Position numbers and translations under genes: made by a program
NCBI GenBank assembly: GCA_016291435.1
Contig: JAEEXH010000009.1
Coordinates: forward strand, 1 to 59,371
Length of the DNA: 59,371 nucleotides
Reading direction: 5' to 3'
From: Oscillospiraceae bacterium
GTDB taxonomy: Bacteria; Bacillota; Clostridia; Oscillospirales; Ruminococcaceae
The notes under the pieces: model-generated
The model's input: only the letters and a program-made list of their open reading frames with translations
Database searches by the model: none
Told to the model about the DNA's origin: nothing
Shown here: in pieces, positions 36,554 to 40,728 of the stretch
How the letters are laid out: each line of letters opens with the position of its first letter
How positions within the stretch are numbered: position 1 is the stretch's first letter

Positions 36554-36582
36554 TTGACAAAGTATGCGATCTGGTGTATAAT
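36554..36582 (+). promoter_or_regulatory. Promoter of the cysteine operon
   Basis: TTGACA (36554-36559), 17-bp spacer, TATAAT (36577-36582): perfect consensus. Confidence 0.9.
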
Positions 36583-36589
36583 ACATACA

Positions 36590-36605
36590 ATCCCGATAGG
36601 GATTA
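36590..36605 (+). promoter_or_regulatory. AATCCCGATAGGGATT operator-like repeat
   Basis: AATCCC-GATA-GGGATT, centred about 8 bp after the predicted transcription start, a repressor position. The core CCGATAGG recurs at 40806-40813. It resembles the kind of site bound by CymR/Rrf2 repressors of sulfur genes in Firmicutes; that link is inference. Confidence 0.55.
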
Positions 36606-36632
36606 CGGAATTACAAGAAAGGAGCAGAGATT

Positions 36633-36725
36633 ATGAAACGCGAAATGATGTGCAGCTGTATGATGACGAATACCGCAGCTCTGCTCCCGGATATGCGTAT
36701 AAGGCTTTGGCGATGTTGCGCGTGA
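36633..36725 (+). CDS. 30-residue Cys-rich leader peptide of the cysteine operon
   Basis: ATG at 36633 with AAAGGAG 8 nt upstream; TGA at 36723-36725. The peptide carries MMCSCMM near the start and ends MRIRLWRCCA, so two adjacent Cys codons (UGU UGC) stand two codons before the stop. It lies between a perfect promoter and an intrinsic terminator, just ahead of methyltransferase-mccB-mccA. This is the layout of a ribosome-mediated attenuator that reads cysteinyl-tRNA supply. Sequence facts are direct; the mechanism is inferred. The similar RIR(L/I) plus Cys ending of the peptide at 23018 supports a common role. Confidence 0.7.
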   Translation: MKREMMCSCMMTNTAALLPDMRIRLWRCCA

Positions 36726-36748
36726 TGCGTATGTCAGAGACCGATATT

Positions 36749-36783
36749 TGCGCGGGATGCAGGCGGCATTCTGCGCATTTTTT
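36749..36783 (+). terminator. Intrinsic terminator in the cysteine operon leader (attenuator)
   Basis: TGCGCGGGATGC pairs over 12 bp (two G-U) with GCATTCTGCGCA around a 5-nt loop, then six Ts; the SD of the next gene starts 3 nt later. The left arm is nearly repeated at 36716-36728 (TTGCGCGTGATGC), over the Cys codons and stop of the leader ORF, so two pairings with the right arm compete. Confidence 0.8.
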
Positions 36784-36794
36784 ATGGAGGGAAT

Positions 36795-37694
36795 ATGGTA
36801 GACGACCGTGAAAGCATCACCGCGAAGCTCTGTGCCTATGCAAGAGCCTGGCACGCAAACCGTGCGCGGGAAAAGATATTTGACGATTATCTTGCCTTTG
36901 ATCTGATGGGCAAGGAGGAATACGATGCGATGTATGAGCTGATCGCACGCGGCTTTGATGAAAAGGAAACACCCTATGCCCGCGACGATGCAGAGCAGAT
37001 CATCACAGAATATATCGCGCCGATCCCGCTCTCGCGCATCCACTTTACAGAGAGCCGGCTTGCGAAATTCGCGCAGACATACGGCAGTATCCAGTATGTG
37101 ATCTGCGGCGCGGGCTCCGATACATTTTCATTCCGCAATGAAAATCCGGAGATCACAGTGTATGAGGTCGATCACCCGGACACACAGCGGAGCAAACTGA
37201 GCCGTATCCGGGCGCTCGAATGGAATATTCCGCAGAATGTGCGGTTTGTTTCCGTGGATTTCGAGCGGCAGCGCATGACAGACCGGCTGCTTGCCGCGGG
37301 ATTTGACCCGCAGAAGCCGACCTTTTTCAGCATCCTCGGCGTTTCCTATTACCTGACGCTTGATGTGTTCACGGAAACGCTTTCGCAGATTGCGGAGCTT
37401 TCCGCACAGGGCAGCGCAGTCGCATTTGATTATCCGATCCGGGGGACAGCGTTTCCGGCGCGTGTGCATCGGCTTGAACAGATTACCGCTTCGCTCGGTG
37501 AGCATATGCGCGGGGGATTTACCTACGAAGAGATCTCCCGGGCGCTCTATTCCCTCGGCTTGCAGATTGACACTTACCTGACACCGCAGCAGGTGCAGGA
37601 GCTTTATTTTCACAACCGCGCAGACGGCATGCGCGCCTTTGAAAATGTGAGTCTCATCTCGGCGACCTATACCGCCGGATACAGTTTTGAATGA
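36795..37694 (+). CDS. SAM-dependent methyltransferase, LCMT/PPM1-like
   Basis: 299 residues. Fold marks of the leucine-carboxyl-methyltransferase-like group: RAREKIFDDYLAFDL near the N-terminus, SIQYVICGAGSDTFSFRNE (SAM-binding loop), VYEVDHPDTQRSK (acidic residue after strand 2), VSVDFE and ILGVSYYL. First gene after the attenuator. In Bacillus the methionine-to-cysteine operon likewise starts with a SAM-dependent methyltransferase gene (yrrT), followed by mtnN, mccA and mccB, so a role in recycling SAM to homocysteine fits. The methyl acceptor is unknown. GGAGG lies 4 nt before the ATG, rather close. Confidence 0.82.
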   Translation: MVDDRESITAKLCAYARAWHANRAREKIFDDYLAFDLMGKEEYDAMYELIARGFDEKETPYARDDAEQIITEYIAPIPLSRIHFTESRLAKFAQTYGSIQYVICGAGSDTFSFRNENPEITVYEVDHPDTQRSKLSRIRALEWNIPQNVRFVSVDFERQRMTDRLLAAGFDPQKPTFFSILGVSYYLTLDVFTETLSQIAELSAQGSAVAFDYPIRGTAFPARVHRLEQITASLGEHMRGGFTYEEISRALYSLGLQIDTYLTPQQVQELYFHNRADGMRAFENVSLISATYTAGYSFE

Positions 37695-37713
37695 TACAGG
37701 AGGATCTATGATC

Positions 37714-38871
37714 ATGAGCAAATATCAGAATGCAGAGACCGCCCTGATACACGGCGGCATTTCGACGGATATTCACACGGGAGCCGTCAATATTCCGATT
37801 TATCAGACCTCGACCTACCAGCAGGACGGTCTCGGCAAAATGCGCGGGTATGAGTATTCCCGCACCGGCAACCCGACTCGTGAAGCGCTCGAAGCGCTGA
37901 TCGCAGAGCTGGAGGGCGGTGAAGCCGGATTCGCGTTCGGCTCCGGTATGGCGGCGATCACGGCTGTCCTGAGCCTGCTGGAGAGCGGCGACAGAGTGCT
38001 GATTTCCAGCAATGTCTACGGCGGCACCTTCCGCGTGCTCGACAAGGTATTCAATCATTTCGGCATTACCTATACGATTGCGGATACCGATGATCCCGCA
38101 CGCTATGAAGCGGAGATCACGCCGGATGTGAAAGCGGTCATCATCGAAAGCCCTGCCAATCCGCTGATGACGGTTACGGATATTGCAGCGGTCTCGGAGA
38201 TCTCGCACAGACACGGTCTGCTTGTGATTGTGGACAATACATTCATGACGCCCTATCTGCAAAAGCCCCTCGCGCTCGGCGCCGATATTGTGGTACACAG
38301 CGCGACAAAATATCTCGGCGGTCACAGCGATGTCGTCGCGGGTCTTGCAGTTGTAAACAGCAAGGCGCTTGCGGAGCGGCTGGCATTCATCCAGAATTCG
38401 ACCGGCGGCGTGCTCGGACCGTTTGATTCCTTCCTTCTGATCCGCGGCATCAAGACGCTTGCTGTTCGCATGGACCGTCATGTGGAGAATGCAGAAAAGG
38501 CTGCGGCTTTTCTGAAAGCGCATGATGCCGTGAAGAAGGTGTATTATCCGGGCCTCCAGGATGATCCGGGCTATGCTGTCAACAGCCGGCAGGCAAAGAA
38601 CGGCGGCGTGATGATCTCCTTTGAGCTGAAAGAAGGGTATGACATCCGCAAATTCTTTGAGAGTCTGGAGCTTGTGATGCTTGCAGAGAGCCTCGGCGGT
38701 GTGGAATCGCTCGTGTGCCATCCTGCGACTATGACCCACGCATCTATTCCTGCGGATATCCGCGCAAAGGTCGGTATCACAGACGGTCTCATCCGTCTCT
38801 CGACTGGCATCGAAAACATCCAAGACATTCTCGCTGATCTTGCACAGGCGATCGACCGTGCGAGCGTTTGA
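37714..38871 (+). CDS. mccB: Cystathionine gamma-lyase/synthase family enzyme (MccB-like)
   Basis: 385-residue PLP enzyme of the Cys/Met metabolism family. Seen: IPIYQTSTYQQDGLG, YEYSRTGNPTREALE, FGSGMAAI, ESPANPLMTVTDI, VIVDNTFMTPYLQKPLALGADIVV-type residues with the PLP lysine in HSATKYLGGHSD, and RLSTGIE near the end. Family members split cystathionine or homocysteine or join O-acyl-homoserine with cysteine. Coupling to a MccA-like gene 13 nt downstream argues for cystathionine gamma-lyase in the homocysteine-to-cysteine direction. Start: ATG at 37714, 10 nt after AGGAGG; ATG 37708 is an alternative. Direction is inferred. Confidence 0.85.
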   Translation: MSKYQNAETALIHGGISTDIHTGAVNIPIYQTSTYQQDGLGKMRGYEYSRTGNPTREALEALIAELEGGEAGFAFGSGMAAITAVLSLLESGDRVLISSNVYGGTFRVLDKVFNHFGITYTIADTDDPARYEAEITPDVKAVIIESPANPLMTVTDIAAVSEISHRHGLLVIVDNTFMTPYLQKPLALGADIVVHSATKYLGGHSDVVAGLAVVNSKALAERLAFIQNSTGGVLGPFDSFLLIRGIKTLAVRMDRHVENAEKAAAFLKAHDAVKKVYYPGLQDDPGYAVNSRQAKNGGVMISFELKEGYDIRKFFESLELVMLAESLGGVESLVCHPATMTHASIPADIRAKVGITDGLIRLSTGIENIQDILADLAQAIDRASV

Positions 38872-38883
38872 AAGGAGCAGAAT

Positions 38884-39801
38884 ATGCATTATTATGATTC
38901 CATGCAGGCACTGATCGGCAATACACCGTTGGTGCGGCTGCATCATTTTGAACCGAACCCCGCGATTGAAATTTATGCCAAGCTCGAACTCTGGAATCCC
39001 TCCGGCAGCGTGAAGGACCGTACAGGTCTTTATATGCTGAACGATGCGGAACGCCGGGGTATCTTGAAGCCGGGCGGCACGATTGTCGAAGCAACCGCGG
39101 GCAATACCGGTCTCGGCATTGCATTCGCGGCACTGAACCGCGGCTACCGCATCATCTTCGTTGTCCCGACAAAATTCTCTGCGGAGAAGCAAGCACTTCT
39201 GCGTGCCCTCGGCGCACAGGTCGTCAATACCCCGCGTGAGCTGGGCATGCTCGGTGCAGTTGAGAAGGCAGAGGAGATCAAGGCGGAAATTCCGGGTTCT
39301 GTATCGCTCGAACAGTTCAAGAATCAGAGCAACCCGCTGGCGCACTATGAAACAACCGGCAGGGAGATCTATGAAGCGCTCGACGGCAAGATCGACTATG
39401 TCGTTGCAGGTGCGGGCAGCGGCGGCACCTACACCGGCATCCTGCGTTATCTGAAAGAGAAGAATCCCGACATCCGCGGCATTCTTGCAGATCCCGTCGG
39501 TTCCACGATGGGCGGCGGCGAGCATGCGGATTATAATATTGAAGGCATCGGCAATGATTTCATCGCGGAGACGATGGATATGTCGCTGGTAGACGGCGTC
39601 GTGAAAATGACGGATGATGAGGCGTTTGCATCTGCACGCGCACTTGCACAGAAGGAGGGCATCTTCGGCGGATCCTCCTCGGGTGCAGCGCTCGCGGCAG
39701 CGCTCAAGCTCGCTGATAAGATCGGGCACGGCAGGATCGTCACAGTTCTGCCCGACAGAGGCGACCGTTATTTCAGCACGGGGCTTTACGAAGGAGTATA
39801 A
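38884..39801 (+). CDS. mccA: Cysteine synthase-family beta-replacement enzyme (MccA-like)
   Basis: 305-residue fold-type II PLP enzyme. PLP lysine in NPSGSVKDRTG, Asn loop EATAGNTGLGIAFAA, phosphate-binding GAGSGGTYTG, and SSSGAAL with the pyridine-contacting Ser. These are shared by O-acetylserine sulfhydrylase (CysK/CysM) and the O-acetylserine-dependent cystathionine beta-synthase MccA. The position after a MccB-like gene favours MccA, making cystathionine from homocysteine and an activated serine. It could equally be a plain cysteine synthase. AAAGGAG precedes the start. Confidence 0.83.
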   Translation: MHYYDSMQALIGNTPLVRLHHFEPNPAIEIYAKLELWNPSGSVKDRTGLYMLNDAERRGILKPGGTIVEATAGNTGLGIAFAALNRGYRIIFVVPTKFSAEKQALLRALGAQVVNTPRELGMLGAVEKAEEIKAEIPGSVSLEQFKNQSNPLAHYETTGREIYEALDGKIDYVVAGAGSGGTYTGILRYLKEKNPDIRGILADPVGSTMGGGEHADYNIEGIGNDFIAETMDMSLVDGVVKMTDDEAFASARALAQKEGIFGGSSSGAALAAALKLADKIGHGRIVTVLPDRGDRYFSTGLYEGV

Positions 39802-39804
39802 ACC

Positions 39805-40728
39805 ATGACAGTGCAGCAGCTGAAATATATTCTTGTCATCTCCGAGACCGGCTCGATGAACAAGGCAGCGGAGCAGCTTTATGTCTCGCAGCCTTCGCTG
39901 ACGGCATCGGTGCAGGAGCTGGAAAGGGAGATCGGCATACAGGTCTTTCACCGCAGCGGCAGAGGCGTCACCCTGACGAATGACGGCGCGGAATTCCTGC
40001 AATATGCCCGGCAGGTCTGCGGGCAGTTTGATGTGCTGACGGAAAAGTACATTCATAAGGGGAATGTCAAGAAGAAGTTTGCCGTTTCAACGCAGCATTA
40101 TTCCTTTGCGGTGAAGGCATTTGTCGAGATGGTCAAGCGCTTCGATACCGCGGAATATGAGTTTGCGATCCGCGAAACGAAAACAGGCGAGGTCATCAGC
40201 GATGTCGCAAAGCAGCGCAGTGAGCTCGGCATCATCTATCTCAATGATTTCAACCGCAAGTCGATGACAAAGCTGCTGCATGCCAACGGGCTCGAGTTTC
40301 ATACCATCACAAAATGCAGCCCGTTTGTCTATCTCTGGAAGGGACACCCGCTTGCACGCGAGCAGTCGATCACATTTGATCAGCTTGAAGCGTATCCCTG
40401 CCTGTCTTTTGAACAGGGCGACAACAGCACATTCTATCTTGCGGAGGAGATCCTAAGCACGAATGACTATCCGCGCATCATCAAGGCAAATGACCGTGCG
40501 ACCATGCTCAATCTGATGGTCGGGCTCGGCGGCTATACGCTCTGCTCCGGTATCATCTGCGAAGAGCTGAACGGCAGCGATTATGTCGCAGTGCCGTTTG
40601 AAGGGGAGAATCCCGATGATCTCATGGAGATCGGCTATCTGACGCTGAAAAAGGTGATGCTCTCCGAGATGGCGAAGATTTATCTTGCCGAGCTACGGGA
40701 TTATCTGATGCTTGACCATGAGATATAA
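39805..40728 (+). CDS. LysR-family regulator (CysB/CysR/YtlI-like)
   Basis: 307 residues. N-terminal winged helix MTVQQLKYILVISETGSMNKAAEQLYVSQPSLTASVQELE-type residues (1-65), long linker helix, then a two-lobed effector domain (about 90-295). AAGGAG 8-9 nt before the ATG; only 3 nt after mccA, so last gene of the cysteine operon. Its neighbours on both sides and the shared GATAACT box upstream of the importer (22933) and of the oxidoreductase operon (40737) make it the likely activator of both. In Bacillus the LysR protein YtlI activates an NMT1-type sulfur importer, a fitting precedent. Effector unknown; O-acetylserine-type compounds are usual for relatives. Confidence 0.88.
   Translation: MTVQQLKYILVISETGSMNKAAEQLYVSQPSLTASVQELEREIGIQVFHRSGRGVTLTNDGAEFLQYARQVCGQFDVLTEKYIHKGNVKKKFAVSTQHYSFAVKAFVEMVKRFDTAEYEFAIRETKTGEVISDVAKQRSELGIIYLNDFNRKSMTKLLHANGLEFHTITKCSPFVYLWKGHPLAREQSITFDQLEAYPCLSFEQGDNSTFYLAEEILSTNDYPRIIKANDRATMLNLMVGLGGYTLCSGIICEELNGSDYVAVPFEGENPDDLMEIGYLTLKKVMLSEMAKIYLAELRDYLMLDHEI

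Follow-up and report, generated by a model that had tools for sequence, protein, structure and literature searches.

Attenuators that work through amino-acid leader peptides are textbook devices in Proteobacteria, whose trp/his types are ribosome-mediated transcription attenuators, and Firmicutes have mostly T-boxes. Leaderless polycysteine small open reading frames (sORFs) in mycobacteria were reportedly described by Canestrari in 2020. In this study, we analysed a stretch of 59,371 nucleotides (the window) from an Oscillospiraceae bacterium (GCA_016291435.1, contig JAEEXH010000009.1), in which a short upstream open reading frame (uORF) with clustered Cys codons and an intrinsic terminator precede a methyltransferase-mccB-mccA operon. 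Conservation and folding with modelled ribosome positions make it highly probable that this leader attenuates transcription in the ribosome-mediated manner of the trp type, with charged tRNA-Cys as the signal. The kind of attenuator is a known one, found here in a new lineage and before a kind of operon for which another sensor was known.

Several described systems come close to this locus, and they are compared here by the portions of the papers drawn on. The ubiG-mccBA-luxS operon of Clostridium perfringens has a Cys T-box, with a cysteine response of ubiG that was evident in vir mutants only; C. acetobutylicum relies mainly on S-box and antisense control, and its T-box does not function in full (PMC2940859). 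Our locus would share with the Clostridium Cys T-box the methyltransferase-mccB-mccA kind of operon, the tRNA-Cys charging signal and premature termination. It differs in that the T-box binds the tRNA directly, without translation, and in that the methyltransferase is ubiG there and an LCM-family enzyme here. In Rhodobacterales, uORFC-8-2 before cysS combines tandem Cys codons with a terminator, and read-through is presumed to occur on low Cys-tRNA (PMC8632094). The likeness to our leader, a Cys uORF with a terminator, is one of described features; the phylum and the gene are other ones, the Cys codons of uORFC-8-2 are usually at positions 14-15, and the first gene in our operon is an LCM methyltransferase instead of cysS. 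Cys-rich uORFs of mycobacteria were predicted earlier (PMC1262725), and the polycysteine sORFs are termed translation attenuation in PMC13236596. They resemble our putative attenuator as Cys-rich, cysteine-responsive uORFs of cys genes, but they are leaderless, have their Cys codons near the stop and lack a conserved terminator, whereas the window leader is led by a Shine-Dalgarno sequence (SD) and has a terminator. Ordinary leader peptides instead of T-boxes were predicted in Firmicutes for hisS*/hisZ of bacilli, which concern His and Bacillus; cysteine occurs in that source, in the portion drawn on, only in a reference title (PMC2965389). In a literature search over titles and abstract openings, with few subscription papers, no leader peptide with Cys codons turned up, either for mccB or for Ruminococcus.

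The promoter, the operator-like repeat, the Cys ORF with its SD, the terminator with six Ts and the SD of the methyltransferase, all listed in the initial annotation, can be read in the sequence (Table 1), and Pfam and NCBIfam domain matches confirm the operon that it had placed downstream. An SD-led short ORF in the leader and an intrinsic terminator before the first gene, as in an attenuator, are thus both present. In the translation, Cys occupies codons 7, 9, 28 and 29. The terminator stem has 12 bp and -19.4 kcal/mol, and the leader DNA is single copy in its genome. The cluster of Cys codons is kept before an operon that makes cysteine, which matches the amino acid expected of a trp-type attenuator.

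Conservation of the ORF and of its Cys codons in relatives had been set beforehand as a test of the proposed cysteine attenuator. Homologues of the methyltransferase occurred in 17 of the 29 other genomes of the genus, and all 18 genus loci (own included) had the promoter, CCGATAGG, a Cys-rich ORF and a terminator, as judged by eye and by script. The leader ORF of L010 has no stop ahead of the terminator and runs through it, with 61 codons in all; the very similar L011 differs. Beyond the genus, 35 of 396 family genomes had a match, from which 30 loci were fetched (L037-L046 being distant paralogues of at most 41% identity); of 394 order genomes, 5 (the own genome counted) matched at E 1e-60; and named genomes were scanned as well, from which the best 80 of 471 relatives were taken (R. 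flavefaciens and others). The pooled sample held 117 near loci with 94 distinct leaders. An automatic test asked for an ORF with at least 3 Cys including CC or CxC, followed within 110 nt by a hairpin of -10 kcal/mol or lower with a T tail. It was passed by 77 of the 94 leaders, but by only 4 of their 94 reverse complements and 2 of their 94 dinucleotide shuffles, and by none of the 10 distant paralogues. The proposal survived this test, and conservation and folding together support a Cys leader peptide with an intrinsic terminator as a probable cysteine attenuator.

A covariance model trained on 37 leaders, that of the window excluded, matched 36684-36778 at E=7e-8, which was the sole strong match in the 3.16-Mb genome (next best E=0.015). 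This marginal second match lies at G000:C24:14380-14451. The model, R1, was made from an alignment (A2) of 37 R. flavefaciens-type leaders, picked by their AQRCC-like peptide end, and used the terminator pairs only. Over 30 genus genomes it gave four strong matches, all at known leaders (G025, G002, G000 and G008), and weak ones at E 0.015-0.084, three of them at known leaders and the remainder not inspected. At the 11 known leaders that remain of the 18, it gave no match at E of 0.1 or lower, so that silence of this model elsewhere says little. In 297 family genomes, searched under stricter filters that also missed known leaders, two extra matches (L151 and L152) look like ordinary terminators.

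For each leader, two free energies were set against each other, one for the fold that has the terminator and one with arm-arm pairs forbidden, and the ribosome was modelled by removing the RNA 5' of its leading edge (A-site codon plus 13 nt). The 77 leaders in this set differ from the 77 that passed the test in that L101 and L110 are out and L023 and L031 are in; L010, L066 and L108 were re-set by hand. In the window, the balance (terminator minus no terminator) was -7.4 kcal/mol for naked RNA (from 36613), -1.1 with the ribosome at Cys codon 7 (C7), -3.4 at Cys codon 9 (C9), -9.7 at the second Cys cluster and -11.6 at the stop. The corresponding means of the 77 leaders were -7.88 for naked RNA, -4.15 and -4.06 at the first and last Cys of the main cluster, -9.96 at the last Cys cluster before the terminator and -12.59 at the stop. 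The better main-cluster stall beat naked RNA in 74 of 77 leaders. It also beat the stop position in 77 of 77, which is partly trivial because more free RNA leaves more alternatives. A stalled state that is better than naked RNA is the trp-like sign, and suggests that an element 5' of the ribosome normally holds the antiterminator strand (region 2); in the naked fold of the window this is the SD of the uORF. The profile of ribosome positions over all codons was similar at footprints of 9-17 nt.

These results change two points of the initial annotation, which had looked to the terminal RCC codons and had found the direction of the switch not obvious, since a stall on the Cys codons would free the terminator. 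Folding with ribosome positions points to the N-terminal cluster (codons 7 and 9) as the most likely sensor instead. That difficulty holds at codons 28 and 29 only; a stall at codons 7 or 9 is predicted to favour the antiterminator, which is then nearly as stable as the terminator and able to form first. It had also been suggested that ribosome position could settle which of two copies of the terminator left arm pairs with the right arm. The second copy does exist (12 of 13 bases, against 36748-36760), but the folds give it no part in the switch: for a ribosome at C7, 0.00 pairs are expected between this copy and either arm, and in the 74 nt upstream the other 76 leaders match their left arm at 10 of 13 bases or fewer, mostly 6-8.

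The order of events was followed on nascent RNA. For a stall at C7, RNAs ending at 36765, 36770 and 36774 had 10.9, 13.3 and 16.9 expected pairs between region 2 and the terminator arms, and 0 terminator pairs. Naked nascent RNA had 5.5 pairs of region 2 with the arms at 36765, and terminator pairs of 4.0 at 36770 and 8.9 at 36774; with the ribosome at the stop, terminator pairs were 1.3 at 36770 and 9.0 at 36774. When 36777 was added in the stalled state, the terminator overtook at equilibrium (10.1 terminator pairs versus 2.2 of region 2). A ribosome at the regulatory codons is thus predicted to favour the antiterminator, as expected of the trp type, and one at the stop, or none at all, is not; at equilibrium this amounts to near-balance rather than excess.

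The codon choice of the ORFs also favours the switch. We recoded 76 uORFs synonymously 40 times each (L010 was omitted, its ORF running through the terminator). The mean stalling gain over naked RNA was 4.70 for the real sequences and 1.89 for the recoded ones, the largest replicate mean being 2.72; 63 of the 76 leaders were above the mean of their own recodings, and 22 of the 76 reached the 5% level. The gain of the window (6.29) was matched by none of its 40 recodings. Cys content by frame was 18.5% versus 8.6% and 4.7%, a biased comparison, since the ORFs were chosen for Cys, and it is not used as support.

Pairing of the strands was examined further in the A2 leaders, among which the window is not included. 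Their common antiterminator has an outer helix of 14 pairs between a uORF strand and the terminator left arm, and two inner helices including the GCGATGTT strand, with a hairpin that has letters in 17 leaders. The terminator was paired in 97.5% of 394 cells, with both-side changes in 8 of its pairs (shuffles 2.1; 0 of 500 as high) and a covariation score of 0.363 (shuffles 0.266; 0/500). The antiterminator, whose model was derived from the same sequences on which covariation was counted, was paired in 85.7% of 985 cells, with 8 both-side pairs (shuffles 4.5; 1/500) and a score of 0.200 (shuffles 0.175; 0/500; slid versions 0.037-0.096). Covariation thus appears strong for the terminator and modest for the antiterminator. 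Strands of the same leader bound better than swapped ones (-17.49 versus -15.66; 0 of 5000 permutations) and scrambled ones (-8.0). In the clade of the window, complementarity was far above that of scrambled strands (-21.6 versus -14.5; best of 100, -16.8).

On this basis, a course of events can be proposed. Transcription would begin just after the -10, a position suggested by the promoter, and proceed across the operator-like site, and the leader ORF would take up a ribosome. If Cys-tRNA is plentiful, this ribosome would pass both Cys clusters to the stop and come to cover region 2 or lie past it; region 2 being unavailable, the two arms would form the terminator and the polymerase would come off at the U tract. 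If Cys-tRNA runs short, a stall at codons 7 or 9 would break the pairing of the SD with region 2 and leave the latter free. On emergence of the left arm, loop and right arm, region 2 would pair with them, and the terminator would come too late. Read-through would then give transcription of methyltransferase-mccB-mccA, and cysteine could be made by reverse transsulfuration. In an untranslated leader, the stem of SD and region 2 would persist and the terminator would form. As in the trp/his type, antiterminator (2:3) and terminator (3:4) are exclusive and naked RNA is predicted to terminate. Here the codons are those of Cys and the organisms are Ruminococcus-type clostridia. The ORF contains region 2, which in the window is held by the SD of the uORF and not by the regulatory codons. 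What comes from the computations is the anatomy, its conservation, the exclusive folds, the way these folds depend on where the ribosome stands, and the covariation in relatives; translation, stalling, read-through, cysteine as the signal and a repressor at the operator are presumed.

Several results weigh against this interpretation. Seventeen of the 94 leaders failed the automatic test, 13 of them without the arrangement or with ORF and terminator far apart. In L010, L023 and L031 the features are present by eye, and L091 is cut by the contig end. The methyltransferase follows directly after another reading frame in L026 and L028, and L027 is a loose case, whose duplicate L110 has a Cys-rich ORF about 140 nt ahead of its terminator. 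Three leaders (L036, L083 and L103) gain nothing over naked RNA on stalling. In the full-length window RNA at equilibrium, the terminator stays ahead by 1.1-3.4 kcal/mol with the ribosome at C7 or C9, so that the ON state relies on the antiterminator forming first, which is usual for attenuators. Any stall at codons 1-12 is permissive in the window profile, and specificity for Cys must therefore come from the codons and not from the fold. When the absolute balance at the Cys codons is compared, 4 of the 40 recodings come level with the window. As for covariation, 17 of the 26 both-side cells of the antiterminator come from two end pairs (columns 11:113 and 12:112), which form in just 23 of 37 and 17 of 31 leaders. 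No both-side change occurs in the two inner helices, which lie within the uORF strand and vary on one side only, and kinship among the leaders inflates such counts. The partner-swap comparison in the clade of the window (15 leaders) was not significant (p=0.07).

A more elaborate form of the attenuator is a two-threshold cysteine sensor. Here the first Cys cluster would turn the operon on under deep starvation, and the second, with its rare CGA, would park ribosomes in the OFF state under mild limitation and sharpen the response. The second cluster would itself be part of the antiterminator in R. flavefaciens-type leaders, and the device would replace the Cys T-box across a group of gut clostridia, with pairing strands that turn over and a logic that is kept. 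Taken as a whole, we regard this as unlikely. The codon pair CGA-TGY occurs in 59 of 77 leaders, which are 59 of the 62 having an Arg-Cys, whereas CGA makes up 4 of the 119 Arg codons in eight genes of the window. The second cluster sits where stalling yields the terminator, and hence cannot be the ON sensor in this model. In the 37 R. flavefaciens-type leaders CGA-TGY lies within an antiterminator helix, and this may be enough to account for it, though it does not cover the whole of the near-invariance. As a separate observation, CGA-TGT at 36711-36716 is near-invariant in Ruminococcus-type leaders, and the antiterminator helix explains it only in part.

The frequency of CGA-TGY despite the rarity of CGA could also mean that read-through is set by nascent-chain arrest, by slow decoding of this pair or by the general translation rate, the Cys richness being a by-product of constraints on the RNA. 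The preference for TGT over TGC in the leaders (323 versus 118), the near fixation of TGTTGTTGTATGTGT in the 17 CCCMC leaders and the release of the window switch by all stalls at codons 1-12 would fit this. We consider it improbable, since other genera have neither CGA-TGY nor that nucleotide motif and yet keep the Cys clusters, a stall at CGA-TGY favours the terminator, and the product of the operon is cysteine. It seems hardly probable either that the product of the ORF is itself a functional microprotein, such as one that binds metals or thiols, with the hairpin being merely a terminator or processing site. Cys clusters are indeed kept over many genera, and a motif RI..(H/Y)...RC recurs within Ruminococcus-type leaders. 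Across genera, however, the peptides share little except the Cys clusters (e.g. MMCACCFYLYNRINR), and four leader peptides tried (L079 without its Met) had no NCBIfam match. The codon choice beyond synonymous recoding and the mutual fit of uORF strand and terminator arm in the same leader also speak for a switch in the RNA.

The operator-like site may act together with the attenuator as a second layer. CCGATAGG stands just 3' of the -10 in 20 of 21 aligned leaders. The repeat matches exactly the pattern derived from it, and with up to 3 mismatches about one chance match is expected per window, so its support is the conservation of CCGATAGG and not window statistics. We take it to be a possible Rrf2/CymR-type site, and two Rrf2-family genes are above the Pfam cut-off in the genome. 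The promoter-operator pattern elsewhere in the genome gave only two matches, with 3 mismatches each and no more than the control. Control by such a repressor only, with a weak or vestigial leader and terminator, would agree with this conservation, with the Rrf2-family genes and with L135, another cysteine synthase of the genome, which has AGATAGG after a -10 and no uORF with clustered Cys upstream. It is very improbable, because codon choice and pairing favour the switch, including in genera with different promoter regions. In L135, AGATAGG, like CCGATAGG, directly follows the -10 about 100 nt 5' of the ATG, and a GC-rich hairpin and a T-rich stretch come after it, which may indicate a shared repressor site. 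It is scarcely credible that the leader is a riboswitch for a metabolite or a tRNA, such as a T-box or S-box, and the ORF incidental: comparable clostridial ubiG-mccBA operons have a Cys T-box (PMC2940859), but at gathering scores Rfam had no match in the window and, in 20 relative loci, nothing besides one unrelated tRNA, the T-box and S-adenosylmethionine (SAM, S-box) families included.

Table 1. Features of the leader and of the operon that it precedes (positions in the window)
Feature	Position	Strand	Basis or remark
Sigma-A-type promoter TTGACA-17-TATAAT	36555..36583	+	read directly; TATTGAC in 21/21 and TATAAT in 20/21 aligned leaders
-35 TTGACA; spacer of 17 bp; -10 TATAAT	36555-36560; 36578-36583		read directly
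Operator-like inverted repeat AATCCCGATAGGGATT	36589..36604	+	just 3' of the -10; read from sequence
SD of the leader peptide, AAAGGAG	36618..36624	+	36621-36629 pairs with 36679-36687 in naked RNA
Leader-peptide ORF MKREMMCSCMMTNTAALLPDMRIRLWRCCA	36633..36725	+	30 codons, own SD; stop at 36723
First Cys cluster, codons 7 and 9, presumed sensing codons	36651..36659	+	folding with ribosome positions
Region 2, predicted antiterminator strand (GAAU, CCGC, CUGCUCCCG)	36668..36689	+	pairs with terminator arms and loop 36753-36771; 36694-36697 contribute 4 more pairs beyond region 2 in the predicted fold
Second Cys cluster CGA-TGT-TGC (Arg-Cys-Cys)	36711..36719	+	CGA-TGY in 59/77 leaders
Copy of terminator left arm, 12/13 bases	36716..36728	+	in window only; not used by the switch as computed
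Region 3, terminator left arm	36749..36760	+	common to terminator and antiterminator (stem 36749-36777)
Region 4, terminator right arm	36766..36777	+	folding; right arm also paired in relatives
Terminator U tract, T6	36778..36783	+	read directly
SD of the methyltransferase, GGAGGG; ATG from 36795	36786-36791	+	read directly
SAM-dependent LCM-family methyltransferase, operon gene 1	36795..37694	+	PF04072 4.8e-41; TIGR00027 3.9e-43
mccB-like cystathionine gamma-lyase/homocysteine desulfhydrase	37711..38871	+	PF01053; best NCBIfam NF005810
mccA-like cysteine synthase/cystathionine beta-synthase-type enzyme	38884..39801	+	PF00291; TIGR01136/TIGR01139 just under cut-off

The mccB-like protein scored 564 bits against NF005810, under the cut-off of 594. 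A LysR-family regulator gene (39805-40728) begins 3 nt past the mccA stop and could belong to the operon. Among relatives, mccB lay 3' of the methyltransferase in 18 of 18 same-genus loci, and within 500 nt of it in 67 of the 77 leaders that passed the test, the others being L029, L030, L036, L108, L113, L115, L116, L121, L122 and L125; this check is limited by the fetched stretch, beyond whose end a more distant mccB may fall. Two of these, L116 and L121, are Lachnospiraceae-named records with a Cys leader ahead of the methyltransferase and no mccB found within the fetched stretch. In the genera of L020, L034, L036 and L128, the Cys leader has a cysteine-synthase-like gene on one side and the methyltransferase on the other, and would seem to be an internal attenuator.

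For this kind of operon, Ruminococcus and related genera seem to rely on a leader peptide with Cys codons where Clostridium has a Cys T-box, and the swap of one charged-tRNA sensor for another thereby becomes testable. The finding would also give a function to tiny unannotated ORFs, and may offer a natural means of reading out how well fibre-degrading gut bacteria are supplied with cysteine.
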